Positions 5,121 through 40,027 of a DNA stretch of 40,027 nt are shown here, piece by piece (the stretch's first letter is position 1; the number at the start of each line of letters is the position of its first letter). This DNA comes from Syntrophomonadaceae bacterium. Its GTDB lineage: Bacteria > Bacillota > DSM-12270 > Thermacetogeniales > Thermacetogeniaceae. Location of the stretch: NCBI GenBank assembly GCA_012840405.1, contig DULM01000149.1, positions 1 through 40,027 of the forward strand, written 5' to 3'. Under the pieces are notes generated by a model. The model searched no databases, was not told the origin of the DNA, and saw nothing but the letters and a program-made list of their open reading frames with translations. Made by a program: the position numbers and the translations under genes.

Positions 5121-6596
5121 TTAATAGAGGCCTACCTTCTCCTCAGACAGGCTGATAAAAATGTTTTTCTTCTGGGTGTAGTGATCAAGCACCATATGGT
5201 GTGTTTCTCGGCCGATACCTGATTTCTTATATCCACCGAAGGGGGCATGTGCAGGCAGATTGTTGTAGTTGTTCACCCACATACGGCCTGTTTCAATCCC
5301 TCTTGCTACACGCAATGCTCTGTTGATATCCTTAGTCCAAACAGCTCCGCCCAGTCCATACTCACTGTCATTAGCCATATCGATGACCTCTTCCTCTGTC
5401 TTAAACTTGATAAAGACAGCAACTGGACCAAAGATCTCTTCCTGGGCAACTCTCATATCATTTTTAACATCAATCAGGATAGTAGGTCTCATGAAAGCAC
5501 CCTTGTCCAGCCCGTTTTCGGTGATGCGCTCGCCACCGCAGGCCACCTTTGCCCCTTCTTTTTTACCTATTTCTACATAGTCCAGAATCTTATTGAGTTG
5601 CCCCTCATTGACTTGAGAGCCCATTACAGTATCCTTTTCCCAAGGTAGGCCAACCTTGACCTTATTGAAAGCATCTACGCATTCTGCTAAGAACTTATCC
5701 CAGATATCCTCATGAACAAAGACCCGAGATCCGGCACAGCAAACCTGGCCCTGGTTGAACAGAATTCCCATCTGGACTCCTTCAATTGCCTTTTCCCATG
5801 GGCAATCAGGGAAGTAGATATTAGCAGACTTGCCGCCCAATTCCAAAGTGGCGGGGATCAGCCTTTTTGCAGCAGCTGCAGCGATATCATAACCAACTTC
5901 AGTAGAACCGGTAAAGGCTAATTTTTTGAAGCCTGGATGCTCCAGCATGTAGTTTCCTGTTGTGGAGCCGCGGCCGGTAACAACATTAACTACTCCTGGA
6001 GGCAGTACCTGATCAAGGAGTTTTGCCAGTTCAAGTATACTCAAAGATGTGACTGATGACGGTTTAATTACGACAGTATCCCCTGCTGCCAAAGCCGGAG
6101 CGATCTTCCAGCAAGCCATTAAGAATGGGAAGTTCCAGGGAATAATCTGGCCGACGACACCAATCGGCTCCCGCAGGATAATGCTCATGGTGTTATCATC
6201 GATCATTGCCACAGATCCTTCTTCCATTCTAACAGCACTGGCAAAATAGCGGAAGTGGTCAGCACCCAAGGGGATATCGATGGCAGTTGTTTCTCTGATG
6301 GGCTTCCCATTATCAAGGGTTTCAATCATAGCCAACTTTTCGGCGTTTTCATCGATCAGATCAGCGATCTTTAGCAGTATTGCTGCCCGCTCTGCGGGAC
6401 TGGTCTTCTTCCAGGATTCAAAAGCCTTTTGGGCCGCCTTCACCGCAGCATCAACATCATTTCTCGACGCATCAGCACAGCTAGCAAGAAATTCTCCGTT
6501 TGCCGGACAATAGGCCTTAAAGGTCTTTCCACCCTCGGCATCTACCCATTTGCCACCAATATACAGTTTGTAACTGTCATCCATCGGTTTTTGCAT
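5121..6596 (-). CDS. NAD-dependent aldehyde dehydrogenase (AldB/AcoD/ExaC-type)
   Basis: PWNFPFLMACWKIAPALAAG, LAFTGSTEVG, LELGGKSANIYF, NQGQVCCAGSR, EEIFGPV, PFGGYKKSGIGRE. Confidence 0.94.
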   Translation of the reverse strand: MQKPMDDSYKLYIGGKWVDAEGGKTFKAYCPANGEFLASCADASRNDVDAAVKAAQKAFESWKKTSPAERAAILLKIADLIDENAEKLAMIETLDNGKPIRETTAIDIPLGADHFRYFASAVRMEEGSVAMIDDNTMSIILREPIGVVGQIIPWNFPFLMACWKIAPALAAGDTVVIKPSSVTSLSILELAKLLDQVLPPGVVNVVTGRGSTTGNYMLEHPGFKKLAFTGSTEVGYDIAAAAAKRLIPATLELGGKSANIYFPDCPWEKAIEGVQMGILFNQGQVCCAGSRVFVHEDIWDKFLAECVDAFNKVKVGLPWEKDTVMGSQVNEGQLNKILDYVEIGKKEGAKVACGGERITENGLDKGAFMRPTILIDVKNDMRVAQEEIFGPVAVFIKFKTEEEVIDMANDSEYGLGGAVWTKDINRALRVARGIETGRMWVNNYNNLPAHAPFGGYKKSGIGRETHHMVLDHYTQKKNIFISLSEEKVGLY

Positions 6597-6756
6597 TTCT
6601 CTTTCCCTCCATAAGAAATATGATAATGATTTAAGTTCTCTAGACCACGCTCAGTCGCCGACCTTAGTTACCAACCTGTTCTACCACCCCCTCAGTAAAA
6701 ATGAACACCAATTGAAAGCTGTACCGGCAGGGGCGCGGTGCAGTTTTTTCCGCAGT

Positions 6757-6844
6757 AAACCCCTTTCCAAATGGGGAAGCCCATCAGTTTCCCCATGAAC
6801 CCTAACGACCTGCAAACCATAGTTTGAAACATTAGATTTGGAGG
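6757..6844 (-). promoter_or_regulatory. Candidate Moco/Tuco-like riboswitch aptamer in the 5' leader of the aldehyde dehydrogenase
   Basis: Minus-strand CCTCCAAATCTAATGTTTCAAACTATGGTTTGCAGGTCGTTAGGGTTCATGGGGAAACTGATGGGCTTCCCCATTTGGAAAGGGG aligns with the plus-strand copy (7140-7237): CAGGYCGWTAGGGT, GGAAACT tetraloop stem, GGCYTCCCATTTTGGAAAGGRG; closing CTCC/GGGG helix. Confidence 0.65.
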
Positions 6845-6877
6845 TTGTAAGAGATTTCATTTACAAAAACTATATAA

Positions 6878-6894
6878 AGCAATAATCGTGCCAA
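6878..6894 (-). promoter_or_regulatory. Sigma-54 (-24/-12) promoter for the aldehyde dehydrogenase
   Basis: Minus strand TTGGCACGATTATTGCT: exact GG-N10-GC spacing, matches TGGCACG-N4-TTGCW; the divergent neighbour is a sigma-54 activator. Confidence 0.85.
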
Positions 6895-7077
6895 TCACAA
6901 AACTGAATCTAAAACACTGCTTAAAACCAAGACATAAAGCAAAAATCCCAGATAATATCTATGGGATGAAGTGTTCACTGTATGTAAAAATACGTATTAT
7001 AACTGTAAAATCCAGGTTACACTATATTACATTTCACAACAGCTGATAGAAATTAAGCTGCTAGCTGAAATAAAATA

Positions 7078-7106
7078 TTGTCAAAATGGTGAAAGGATCT
7101 TTTATT
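7078..7106 (+). promoter_or_regulatory. Possible sigma-A promoter for the riboswitch/activator transcript
   Basis: TTGTCA-N17-TTTATT; would start transcription about 27 nt before the aptamer closing helix. Confidence 0.4.
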
Positions 7107-7139
7107 TATTTTGTCGAAGGTAAAATAAAATAATAAAAA

Positions 7140-7237
7140 TCTCCGAGCCTACAAGCCTGAAGCCGGTTTTTGGGTATGGATGACAGGCCGATAGGGTCTG
7201 AGAGGAAACTTTCAGGCCTCCCATTTTGGAAAGGAGA
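7140..7237 (+). promoter_or_regulatory. Candidate Moco/Tuco-like riboswitch aptamer upstream of the sigma-54 activator
   Basis: TCTCCGAGCC...GCCTG...GGGTATGGATGACAGGCCGATAGGGTCTGAGAG-GAAA-CTTTCAGGCCTCCCATTTTGGAAAGGAGA: closing TCTCC/GGAGA helix, 10-bp GNRA-capped stem GGTCTGAGAG/CTTTCAGGCC; motif resembles recalled Moco RNA (RF01055) consensus. Confidence 0.7.
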
Positions 7238-7259
7238 GTATGTGATTGTAGTTTATTTT

Positions 7260-7292
7260 ACCGGTGTACTCTCTGCACTGGTTTTTTGTTTC
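7260..7292 (+). terminator. Intrinsic terminator forming the riboswitch expression platform
   Basis: ACCGGTG-tactctctg-CACTGGT followed by TTTTTTGTTT; loop TACTCTC (7267-7273) is complementary to GAGAGTA (7234-7240), which overlaps the aptamer closing helix. Confidence 0.8.
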
Positions 7293-7429
7293 ATAACCTT
7301 CCTTGATAAAATCACATATTCACAACATACCTAACTCAGCCCCTAAACACCAGCAGACATAACAACAAACTGACCCAACTATATATACTAGTTTGATAAT
7401 ACCTGTTCCGCAGGAAAGGAGATAATAAA

Positions 7430-9415
7430 ATGCATACTGCTGAACAAGACAATATCAATATCAAAAAAGCATGGTTAAAGTTTGTACAAACTGGAACCAT
7501 CGACCCCATTGTACGGCCTGTAATCGCCGACTCCTGGCGCCGCTCCTACCGGGCTGGGGTTGATCCATTTTGTGGTGTCAATCACCATAACTCTCTGAGC
7601 GAGCCTCAACTGGATGAATTACTGGAAAAACACCGGGACTTTATTGATATCGCCAAAAGATTTATGTATAACATTTACCATTTTGTTAAAGGTTCTGGTT
7701 TTGTTGTCATCCTATCTGATGATAGAGGTTACATAATGGAAATAATGGGTGACAGTGACACACTGTTAAATGCAGTTAAGTTAAATTTGGTGAAAGGTGC
7801 CTGTTGGGCTGAACAAGTAGAAGGTACAAACGGATTGGGTACAGCCCTCGCCACAAAAAAACCAGTTCAGGTCTCAGGATACGAACATTACTGCCAGCGA
7901 ACCCAAAGTTGGACCTGCTCAGCTGCACCCATCTACGATGGTAATAAACTGATCGGTGCTCTTCAAATGTCAGGTCCCTCATCAAAAACACACCTGCATA
8001 CCCTAGGCATGGTTGTGGCAGCTGTGGAGGCCATTGAGCACGAAATAAAGGTCAAAAGGCAAAACAGCAAGCTGATCCTGCTAAACAACCAACTCAAACA
8101 AATTTTCCTCACAGTATCTGACGGAGTAATTGTTGTAAACAAAGAAGGTAGAATAAAACAAATTAATCCGGTAGCAAAGACATTTATTAATAACAACAGC
8201 CAGAAAAAACTTAACACTTTTATCAATCAGATACCGACAATCGAACAGATGCTTCAAGAGGGAAAACCCTACTTTGATAAAGAAATTACAGTTTCTGCAG
8301 GCACCTATACAAACCGCTTTCTTTCTACAGGAAAACCCATCAAGAATGAACACGGAGAGATCATCGGGGGTGTTATCTTCCTTAATCCCATCAACAAAAT
8401 CAAGAAACTCGTAAACCGTTTCAGCGGAGCACATGCAACCTTTCGCTTCGAAGACATTCTTGGCAACAGCCCTAAAATACGAGAAGCAGTTTCTATCGCT
8501 TCCCGAGCGGCAGAAAGCGACAGCAGTGTGCTCCTTACCGGAGAGAGTGGTACAGGGAAAGAGGTCTTCGCCCAGGCAATCCACAACAAAAGTCCTCGCA
8601 GGAACGGGCCTTTTATTGCTGTAAACTGTGGGGCAATTCCAAGGGAACTGATCGCCAGTGAACTCTTTGGCTATGAGGAAGGAGCATTTACCGGCGCTCA
8701 GCGAGGGGGACGCACAGGGAAGTTCGAACTGGCGTCAGGTGGCACACTGTTCCTTGATGAAATCGGAGACATGCCCCTGGAACAACAGGTAGCCTTGCTG
8801 CGGGTACTTCAGGATAAACAAATCACACGCATCGGAGGAGACAAGGCTATTTTCGTGGATGTGCGTATCATCTGCGCAACCAACAAGAACCTGGAGTTAG
8901 AAGTGGTCAAAGGTAACTTCCGCCAGGATCTGTACTACAGACTCAATGTTATCTCTATTGAGCTTCCTCCCCTGCGGAAGCGTAAGGAAGATATTCCTCT
9001 GCTCTTTGATCACTTTTTGCAGGAAACTAGCCGCAAACTTGGAATCAAGATCAACTTCGTAGATCCTGAAATCATTACTTACCTGCAGCAGTATCAATGG
9101 CCGGGCAATATCCGAGAATTTCAAAATGTTATCGAAAGAATGGTCAACCTATCAAACGGTGGGAATCTCGGAATCGAGCATATCCCAAAAGAAATAATTA
9201 TTCAGCAAATCAAGCCCAATTCCCTAATAAAACCACTAACTACAACCAGCAATGATAATATAAAAATCAAAGAATTATTAGCAGAAAAAGAGCGACAAGA
9301 AATTATCTCCACACTTCTCAATAACAATGGCAATATCAGCAGAACAGCAAAAGATCTGCATATATCCCGCCCGACACTCTATCGAAAAATGCGAAAACTA
9401 AATATCTCTCTCTAA
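7430..9415 (+). CDS. AcoR-like sigma-54-dependent transcriptional activator (GAF/PAS, AAA+, Fis HTH)
   Basis: [59 protein letters not shown]-terminal [27 protein letters not shown]. Confidence 0.95.
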
Positions 9416-12645: not shown

Positions 12646-13005
12646 TTAACTGCGCGGGTTGAACAGCACAGCAAAGGCATAACCGAAAATTACAGCAGCA
12701 GCAACACCTACTGCTGTAGATTCTATCCCTCCGGAAAAGGCCCCCAGCAGCCCTTTTTGTTCTACCGCCTTGATGGCACCCTGGGCTAAGCTGTGCCCAA
12801 AGCCTGAAAGGGGAATGGTTGCACCCGCTCCCGCTAGGTCCACCAGAGGCTGATAAAGGCCAACTGAACTCAGCAAAACCCCGCCGGTGACATAGCCAAC
12901 AAGGATGTGGGCCGGGGTGATAGAGGGTCTGGTCAGATCCATAAGCAGTTGTCCAATTACACAGATCAGGCCTCCCACAACAAAAGCCAATAATATTTTC
13001 AGCAA
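12646..13005 (-). CDS. spoVAE: Stage V sporulation protein AE
   Basis: LLAFVVGGLICVIGQLLMDLTRPSITPAHILVGYVTGGVLLSSVGLYQPLVDLAGAGATIPLSGFGHSLAQGAIKA; downstream of spoVAD. Confidence 0.93.
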   Translation of the reverse strand: MLKILLAFVVGGLICVIGQLLMDLTRPSITPAHILVGYVTGGVLLSSVGLYQPLVDLAGAGATIPLSGFGHSLAQGAIKAVEQKGLLGAFSGGIESTAVGVAAAVIFGYAFAVLFNPRS

Positions 13006-39380: not shown

Positions 39381-40027
39381 TAGGTTGGGGTAAGGTTTTT
39401 TAACCTCGACCTCCAACCTGATAGATCTCAATGTAACAGGTGGTCTCCTGCTGGGTAAATATTGTGGCTTAGGTCTAGCAGGTTTTCCCAACAAGGAGCC
39501 AGGACGTCGCCGTCCTGGTGGTTTCCCTTTCATCCCTGTTCTGCTTCGTTGCCGAAAGCAGGGCTAGATTACCACTTAGTCCACACTTTAATCCCCAACA
39601 GGAGCTGCTAGGCAGACAGTCTAGGAGATTTCCTCGACGTATTGGCTAGTTTCTAGCCTCTTTTGCAGTGAAGGTTTCAGCCCTGGCTTGCTGTTGCAGG
39701 GCCCTACACCAGCAGGCCATTTTGTTGGCATCCACCATCACCACTCAAGGCAGGCTACACTGCACACAGCACTAATCAGGTACCGCATACAGGTTCAACT
39801 CAAAGCCGTAGTATTACACCACGCACTTGAGCCTCCGCGGAAGAAGGGTCAACGCCTACATGCCATTGTAGATCGCCCTTCATCCTTAACTCCCAGCACA
39901 AGCCCCCGACTGGGCGTCGAAAGCCAGCACCAGGAACTTCATCGATGTGCCCGTGACGGATTTTTAGGCCCGCCTTCGAAACTAGCCGCTACGACTAGAA
40001 TACTGCACCACCTGTCCATCATATCTC
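39381..40027 (-). ncRNA. ole: OLE RNA (ornate large extremophilic RNA), 5' end possibly cut by window edge
   Basis: About 650 nt with no long ORF on either strand, rich in stable hairpins (e.g. CCAGGACG-GCGA-CGTCCTGG; CTGCTT-TCGGCAACG-AAGCAG; GGTTGG...CCAACC at the 3' end), directly upstream of an OapA-like gene and dxs, the known OLE synteny. Confidence 0.82.

Follow-up and report, generated by a model that had tools for sequence, protein, structure and literature searches.

The bacterium analyzed here, from a family of acetogen-like anaerobes, appears to swap aldehyde-oxidizing enzymes according to cofactor supply, because twin molybdenum/tungsten cofactor (Moco/Tuco) sensors guard both an aldehyde dehydrogenase (ALDH) gene and the gene of its activator, these sensors are lost where the tungsten enzyme is absent, and a small RNA (sRNA) matches the mRNA of that tungsten enzyme, AOR. 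We consider it likely that Tuco supply decides between W-dependent AOR and the W-free ALDH, as a cofactor-gated isozyme switch. The aptamers, terminators, promoter, upstream enhancer (UAS), presence of AOR, phylogenetic pattern, sRNA-target complementarity, and covariation were observed directly; the ligand, the OFF sign in vivo, the shared aldehyde substrate, and the effect of the sRNA on translation are inferred, without expression, binding, or mutant data. The DNA analyzed (the window) is a stretch of 40,027 nucleotides from a 2.1-Mb genome that is 85% complete (G000).

The ALDH gene and the activator gene are divergent, and the 833-bp gap between them contains two RF01055 Moco/Tuco aptamers back to back (cmscan, Rfam 15). 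The locus comprises the following features:

5121-6596, minus strand: aldehyde dehydrogenase, non-acylating, 491 aa, without metal cofactor (PF00171, 594 bits)
6744-6866, minus strand: RF01055 aptamer of the ALDH leader (48.6 bits, E 9.3e-9), P3-less, with an atypical core (UCCGA lost)
6879-6894, minus strand: sigma-54 promoter of ALDH, TTGGCACGATTATTGC, an exact consensus match
6980-7031 (core 7004-7031), minus strand: enhancer (UAS) array of four boxes (TGTAA twice, TTACA twice), located some 90-137 bp upstream of the sigma-54 promoter
7129-7252, plus strand: RF01055 aptamer of the activator leader (69.0 bits, E 9.7e-15), P3-less, core intact
7260-7282, plus strand: intrinsic terminator of the activator leader, ACCGGTGTACTCTCTGCACTGGT and T-tract, with a loop that complements the 3' strand of aptamer P1 (antiterminator)
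7430-9415, plus strand: sigma-54-dependent activator, AcoR/DhaR-like, 661 aa (GAF, AAA+ with GAFTGA, Fis-type HTH)

Each aptamer lies upstream of its own gene on the same strand, and both score above the RF01055 gathering score of 36; by covariance-model score, the pair are members of this family. The earlier note's claim of two cofactor aptamers, one each for activator and ALDH, thus held. The activator-side copy has all of UCCGA, the GGAAAC loop, and GGAAAGG. The P3 stem is absent from both (linkers GAT and GTT), and all six intact aptamers that we checked carry linkers of 2 to 3 nt where P3 would be. Regulski et al. (2008) tied the P3-less form to Tuco (PMC2408646), a rule that is a correlation over 17 of 19 organisms (PMC2408646); deletion of P3 did not switch aptamer specificity. 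That the twin aptamers bind Tuco rather than Moco is inferred from the absence of P3 only, with no binding data. Elsewhere in the window, a complete OLE RNA occupies 39424-40027 on the minus strand (552 bits).

We compared the divergent ALDH/activator pair at eight loci: in the window genome and G003, which represent the window's own genus; in G007, which we take to be Thermacetogenium phaeum; in G018, from a third genus; in G004, G014, and G019; and in the outgroup G022. The sigma-54 promoter ends 12 nt before the 5' end of the ALDH-side aptamer, and an equivalent site is present at every locus examined (8/8). The spacing of the UAS boxes is identical in four genomes of two genera, and in four genomes the core pattern occurs without mismatch once per genome, always at the ALDH/activator locus. 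With a GAFTGA activator, a −24/−12 promoter, an upstream enhancer, and rpoN in the window's genome, the sequence anatomy of an enhancer-dependent sigma-54 system is complete. Because the UAS core is unique in the genome and always at this locus, the activator is probably dedicated to the adjoining ALDH, an inference from sequence without binding data. When the genome's contigs were searched with the activator, nothing but distant AAA+ relatives came up. The ALDH itself is nearest to the NAD-dependent ExaC/AldB type: it scores 624 bits against NCBIfam ExaC, under the cut-off of that model, and its nearest solved structures are the aldehyde dehydrogenase 9fm9 and ExaC 9koi.

Relatives of the activator were seen in other settings. 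In G051, a distant relative, a 52%-identical activator with no adjoining ALDH carries one RF01055 aptamer (L060 5474-5592, minus strand), which has a very strong terminator. T. phaeum has a second paralogous activator beside an AFOR fragment (L056, 1969756-1971735), and in genome G034 an activator relative lies about 4 kb from an AOR.

The earlier note had made its inference conditional on the supposition that both elements are OFF switches. In the window's activator leader, the terminator loop (UACUCUC) is complementary to GAGAGUA, the 3' strand of P1, more so than 98.6% of shuffles (99.8-100% in the activator leaders of relatives). The activator leaders of T. phaeum and G018 carry the same terminator/antiterminator device in different letters, with a weaker U-tract in the T. 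phaeum hairpin, and the platform is coupled to P1 in the window genome, G003, T. phaeum, and G018. The activator-side element therefore has OFF-switch anatomy in three lineages; its sign in cells is inferred, and there are no expression data. OFF-type platforms also occur in the ALDH leaders of T. phaeum and G018 (shuffle fractions 0.004 and 0.041), the G018 antiterminator being modestly better than shuffles. The supposition thus held anatomically for the activator side and, in relatives but not in the window's genus, for the ALDH side, without data on W/Mo response or ligand.

Within the window's genus the ALDH-side aptamer is unusual. Its UCCGA core, kept in 48 of the 51 RF01055 copies examined, has become UUACA, while the GGAAAC loop and GGAAAGG segment are intact. 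No terminator was found after this aptamer in the genus, and the sequence is near-identical in the sister genome G003, which is not independent evidence. Folding predicts that the 5' strand of the unbound aptamer can pair with the Shine-Dalgarno region of ALDH. Such pairing could possibly reverse the sign, so that the predicted element might switch translation in either direction, or be decayed. Because the core is mutated and the terminator is missing, the functional state of this element is uncertain. The activator-side switch is intact, and ALDH would therefore still be gated through its activator whatever the state of the ALDH side.

The earlier note had stated that no W/Mo catalytic subunit is visible, and had proposed looking for W-dependent AOR and FdhA in the rest of the genome. 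The statement is true of the window and not of the genome, where both enzymes were found. A full AOR operon lies on contig C90, encoding a ferredoxin subunit, AOR, a ThiS-like protein, NuoE/NuoF-like and Fer2 subunits, and two Fe-alcohol dehydrogenases. The operon has a separate sigma-54 promoter-like site, as well as a sigma-54 response regulator and a kinase of its own. Its AOR shares 88% identity with an AOR of T. phaeum, and contig C7 encodes a second, divergent AFOR. FdhA is on another contig:

L013 11785-14466 (contig C110): FdhA, whose reading frame contains a TGA in the Sec context R-T-U-H-A-P-T-V-A-G; RF01055 aptamer upstream, no close terminator

T. phaeum expresses two identical copies of AOR on ethanol (PMC6436200), and acetaldehyde-oxidizing activity is 15-fold higher with ethanol than with methanol (PMC6436200). 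AOR and ALDH are both encoded in the window genome; acetaldehyde is a plausible common substrate, although this is inferred.

There are nine RF01055 copies in the genome: the twin pair, two at a CbiQ/ABC operon, one orphan, and one each at FdhA, a DUF4213 protein, a TupA-like binding protein, and a NiFe hydrogenase small subunit with a Tat signal. The hydrogenase-linked copy (L012 12222-12342) precedes a gene start at 12651, and about ten of the family's genomes have RF01055 upstream of the periplasmic NiFe(Se) hydrogenase (also L209, L224 with two aptamers, L245-L249, L251, and L253). No second riboswitch class, such as nickel, was found in the hydrogenase leaders besides RF01055. This hydrogenase is another cofactor-free RF01055 target and may replace W-formate dehydrogenase.

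Across the eight loci, aptamers and AOR go together. Twin aptamers are present in the window genome, G003, T. phaeum, and G018 (where the contig breaks off behind the first codons of ALDH), and all four of these genomes encode a canonical AOR (>500 bits). The twin-element architecture, whose conservation upstream of ALDH/activator pairs the earlier note had wanted checked, is thus conserved in T. phaeum and G018 besides the window's own genus. The loci of G004, G014, G019, and G022 have no above-threshold aptamers, and none of these four genomes has a canonical AOR (no match in G004 and G022; 115 bits in G014; 59 bits with a stop in G019). Other RF01055 copies remain elsewhere in them (four in G004, seven in G014, 13 in G019, and two in G022), and the hydrogenase aptamer is retained in G014 and G019. 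In G019 the ALDH aptamer is a 22-bit relic and only the 5' third of the activator aptamer is left; the activator gene itself (L052 6471-9000) has two apparent frameshifts, from decay or assembly error. G019 is the sister of G018 (support 100/99), which has AOR and kept both aptamers, and the loss in G014 is separate because G014 branches outside this pair. Fisher's test of twin aptamers against AOR gives p = 0.029 (4 versus 4) or 0.10 (3 versus 3), with lineages that are not independent; the correlation rests on no more than three twin lineages, with about two of the losses resolved. Elsewhere in the phylum, no RF01055 aptamer was found near ALDH homologs (0 of 20 loci), and no aptamer accompanies those ALDH relatives from outside the family that occur together with AOR. 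The earlier note's inference of isozyme replacement is supported, in that aptamers are missing or decayed exactly where canonical AOR is missing.

What the earlier note did not see is an apparent Tuco control of the AOR arm through a riboswitch-gated sRNA. The orphan aptamer of the window genome has no gene after it and belongs to a unit found in several genomes:

L015 9205-9460 (contig C245; aptamer 9205-9327): orphan RF01055 aptamer and sRNA unit, with an OFF-type terminator, the conserved GATCGGCATCAGTACC, and a second terminator hairpin
L217, L207 (minus strand), L227 (minus strand), L330, L242, L322, L343 (minus strand), and L361: further copies of this unit

Besides the window genome, those with the unit are G003, T. 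phaeum, G009, G010, G018, and G019, and, with a longer match to aorB, G005 and G016. The sRNA seed complements codons 3 to 7 of aorB, the gene with which the AOR operon begins. In the window genome there are 11 contiguous pairs; in G005 the pairing extends over 28 bp (−46.3 kcal/mol versus −30.9 for the best of 2000 shuffles), and the G016 seed is the same. By contiguous complementarity, the aorB start ranks first in the window genome, T. phaeum, and G018, among only the translation starts in the loci examined; targets were not ranked genome-wide, and for the window genome the antisense strand of the sRNA locus itself was set aside. The sRNA covaries with aorB at two positions (8/8 and 7/8 genomes, 15/16 together), the exception being one mismatched pair in G010. 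The distribution has exceptions as well: G019 keeps the sRNA although AOR is gone, and G008 and G013 have AOR and no sRNA was found in them, nor was one found in G012. The unit consists of an aptamer and terminator, then a noncoding RNA that ends in a second terminator and whose pairing with the target covaries. By this sequence anatomy alone it qualifies as a riboswitch-gated trans-acting sRNA; its expression and its repression of aorB are inferred.

Several further observations concern this unit. In G005 and G016 (L361 and L343, minus strand), a second aptamer directly follows the first aptamer and sRNA, and in G016 the next gene is fdhA-like. The seed 16-mer has 37 matches in viral contigs. 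In T. phaeum, the orphan aptamer is not syntenic with ctpB/M23 genes. A small peptide in the conserved block was considered and rejected, there being no apparent start codon or common frame in the window-genome and T. phaeum copies.

In the mechanism that we propose, plentiful Tuco would be bound by the P3-less aptamer of the activator leader, P1 would hold the GGAGAG strand, and the terminator would form; the ALDH-leader aptamer would act likewise only in lineages with an intact copy. The NAD-type ALDH and its dedicated activator would then be off, the orphan-aptamer sRNA would be terminated, AOR would be made, and aldehyde oxidation would be left to this W-containing enzyme. When Tuco is short, GGAGAG would pair with the terminator loop and the activator would be made, bind the UAS, and drive ALDH from the sigma-54 promoter. 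The sRNA would be completed and its seed would block the aorB start; because the seed pairs with aorB codons 3 to 7, Tuco shortage should also block synthesis of unusable AOR. A bolder reading, which we favor by a narrow margin, is that one Tuco signal silences the W-free ALDH and its activator, protects AOR through sRNA termination, and gates the periplasmic NiFe hydrogenase too. If true, this would amount to a "tungsten-sparing response," in which the hydrogenase would use H2 in place of W-formate dehydrogenase.

Other readings of these data can be weighed against the isozyme switch. The aptamers could be ordinary Moco/Tuco riboswitches on an aldehyde-catabolism locus that feeds cofactor-dependent metabolism indirectly, with no isozyme replacement. 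In favor of this, Moco RNAs also occur on transporters and on enzymes that use the cofactor, the substrate of ALDH is unknown, and relatives elsewhere in the phylum have ALDH and AOR without aptamers. However, neither ALDH nor the activator needs a pterin cofactor, loss of the locus aptamers tracks AOR absence while other aptamers in those genomes stay, and a Tuco-gated sRNA has its complement in the AOR operon; we regard this reading as unlikely. The co-occurrence of twin aptamers and AOR could instead be a small-clade coincidence, given so few independent twin lineages and resolved losses. This also seems improbable, as both G019 aptamers decayed together and the AOR-bearing sister kept both.

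Two further alternatives bear on details of the isozyme switch. The twin aptamers may sense Moco, or both Moco and Tuco, which remains possible, though less likely, since the P3 rule is only a correlation and P3 deletion left specificity unswitched; against this, every twin-locus aptamer is P3-less, and the genome encodes a TupA-like binding protein along with a W-type AOR. The ALDH-side element of the window's genus may be degenerate or rewired to the ribosome-binding site, perhaps with the opposite sign, leaving the activator side as the single OFF gate. The altered core, the missing terminator, and the predicted pairing of the Shine-Dalgarno region with the aptamer 5' strand speak for this, whereas the intact GGAAAC loop and GGAAAGG, the score above the gathering threshold, and the near-identity in G003 (though not independent) speak against it. 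On balance we lean slightly away from the single-gate reading, which would in any case be compatible with an isozyme switch as such.

If the isozyme switch is correct, it would extend metE-type logic to the W/Mo cofactor, in a form where the activator is gated along with its target, and trace-metal supply would predict the route by which an acetogen oxidizes aldehydes. The sRNA, whose mRNA target shows compensatory changes, would be a testable metal-sparing RNA in the cultured T. phaeum, and the twin loci offer an in-cell test of the unproven Moco-versus-Tuco selectivity of P3-less aptamers. In the open-access literature that we searched (paywalled work lies outside it), there is no report of a Moco/Tuco riboswitch on an ALDH, an ALDH activator, a hydrogenase, or such an sRNA.

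The elements described here resemble published Moco/Tuco riboswitches (RF01055, PMC2408646) in aptamer class, P3-less variant, terminator platforms, and several copies per genome. The targets published so far serve to synthesize, transport, or employ the cofactor, whereas those here include an sRNA, a cofactor-free hydrogenase, and a cofactor-free ALDH with its activator. AcoR/DhaR-type sigma-54 activators beside ALDH genes share the domain layout, divergent position, sigma-54 promoter, and upstream enhancer; the window's activator differs in carrying a riboswitch in its leader. In Aromatoleum aromaticum, a W-dependent AOR and a phenylacetaldehyde dehydrogenase serve the same reaction, and deletion of the dehydrogenase raises AOR (PMC6365974). 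No riboswitch is described in the bearing sections of that paper. B12 riboswitches control B12-independent metE and ribonucleotide reductase, such that the cofactor represses the cofactor-free isozyme. The regulatory logic is alike, but here the cofactor and pathway are different, the gating covers the activator as well as its target, and a riboswitch-gated sRNA apparently acts against the cofactor-dependent isozyme. The Rli55 and EutX sRNAs of ethanolamine utilization are completed or not by a cofactor riboswitch and sequester a protein. The orphan-aptamer sRNA shares with them a cofactor riboswitch that decides its completion, whereas it appears to pair with an mRNA start, and by analogy its apparent target places it closer to metal-sparing RNAs such as RyhB and FsrA.
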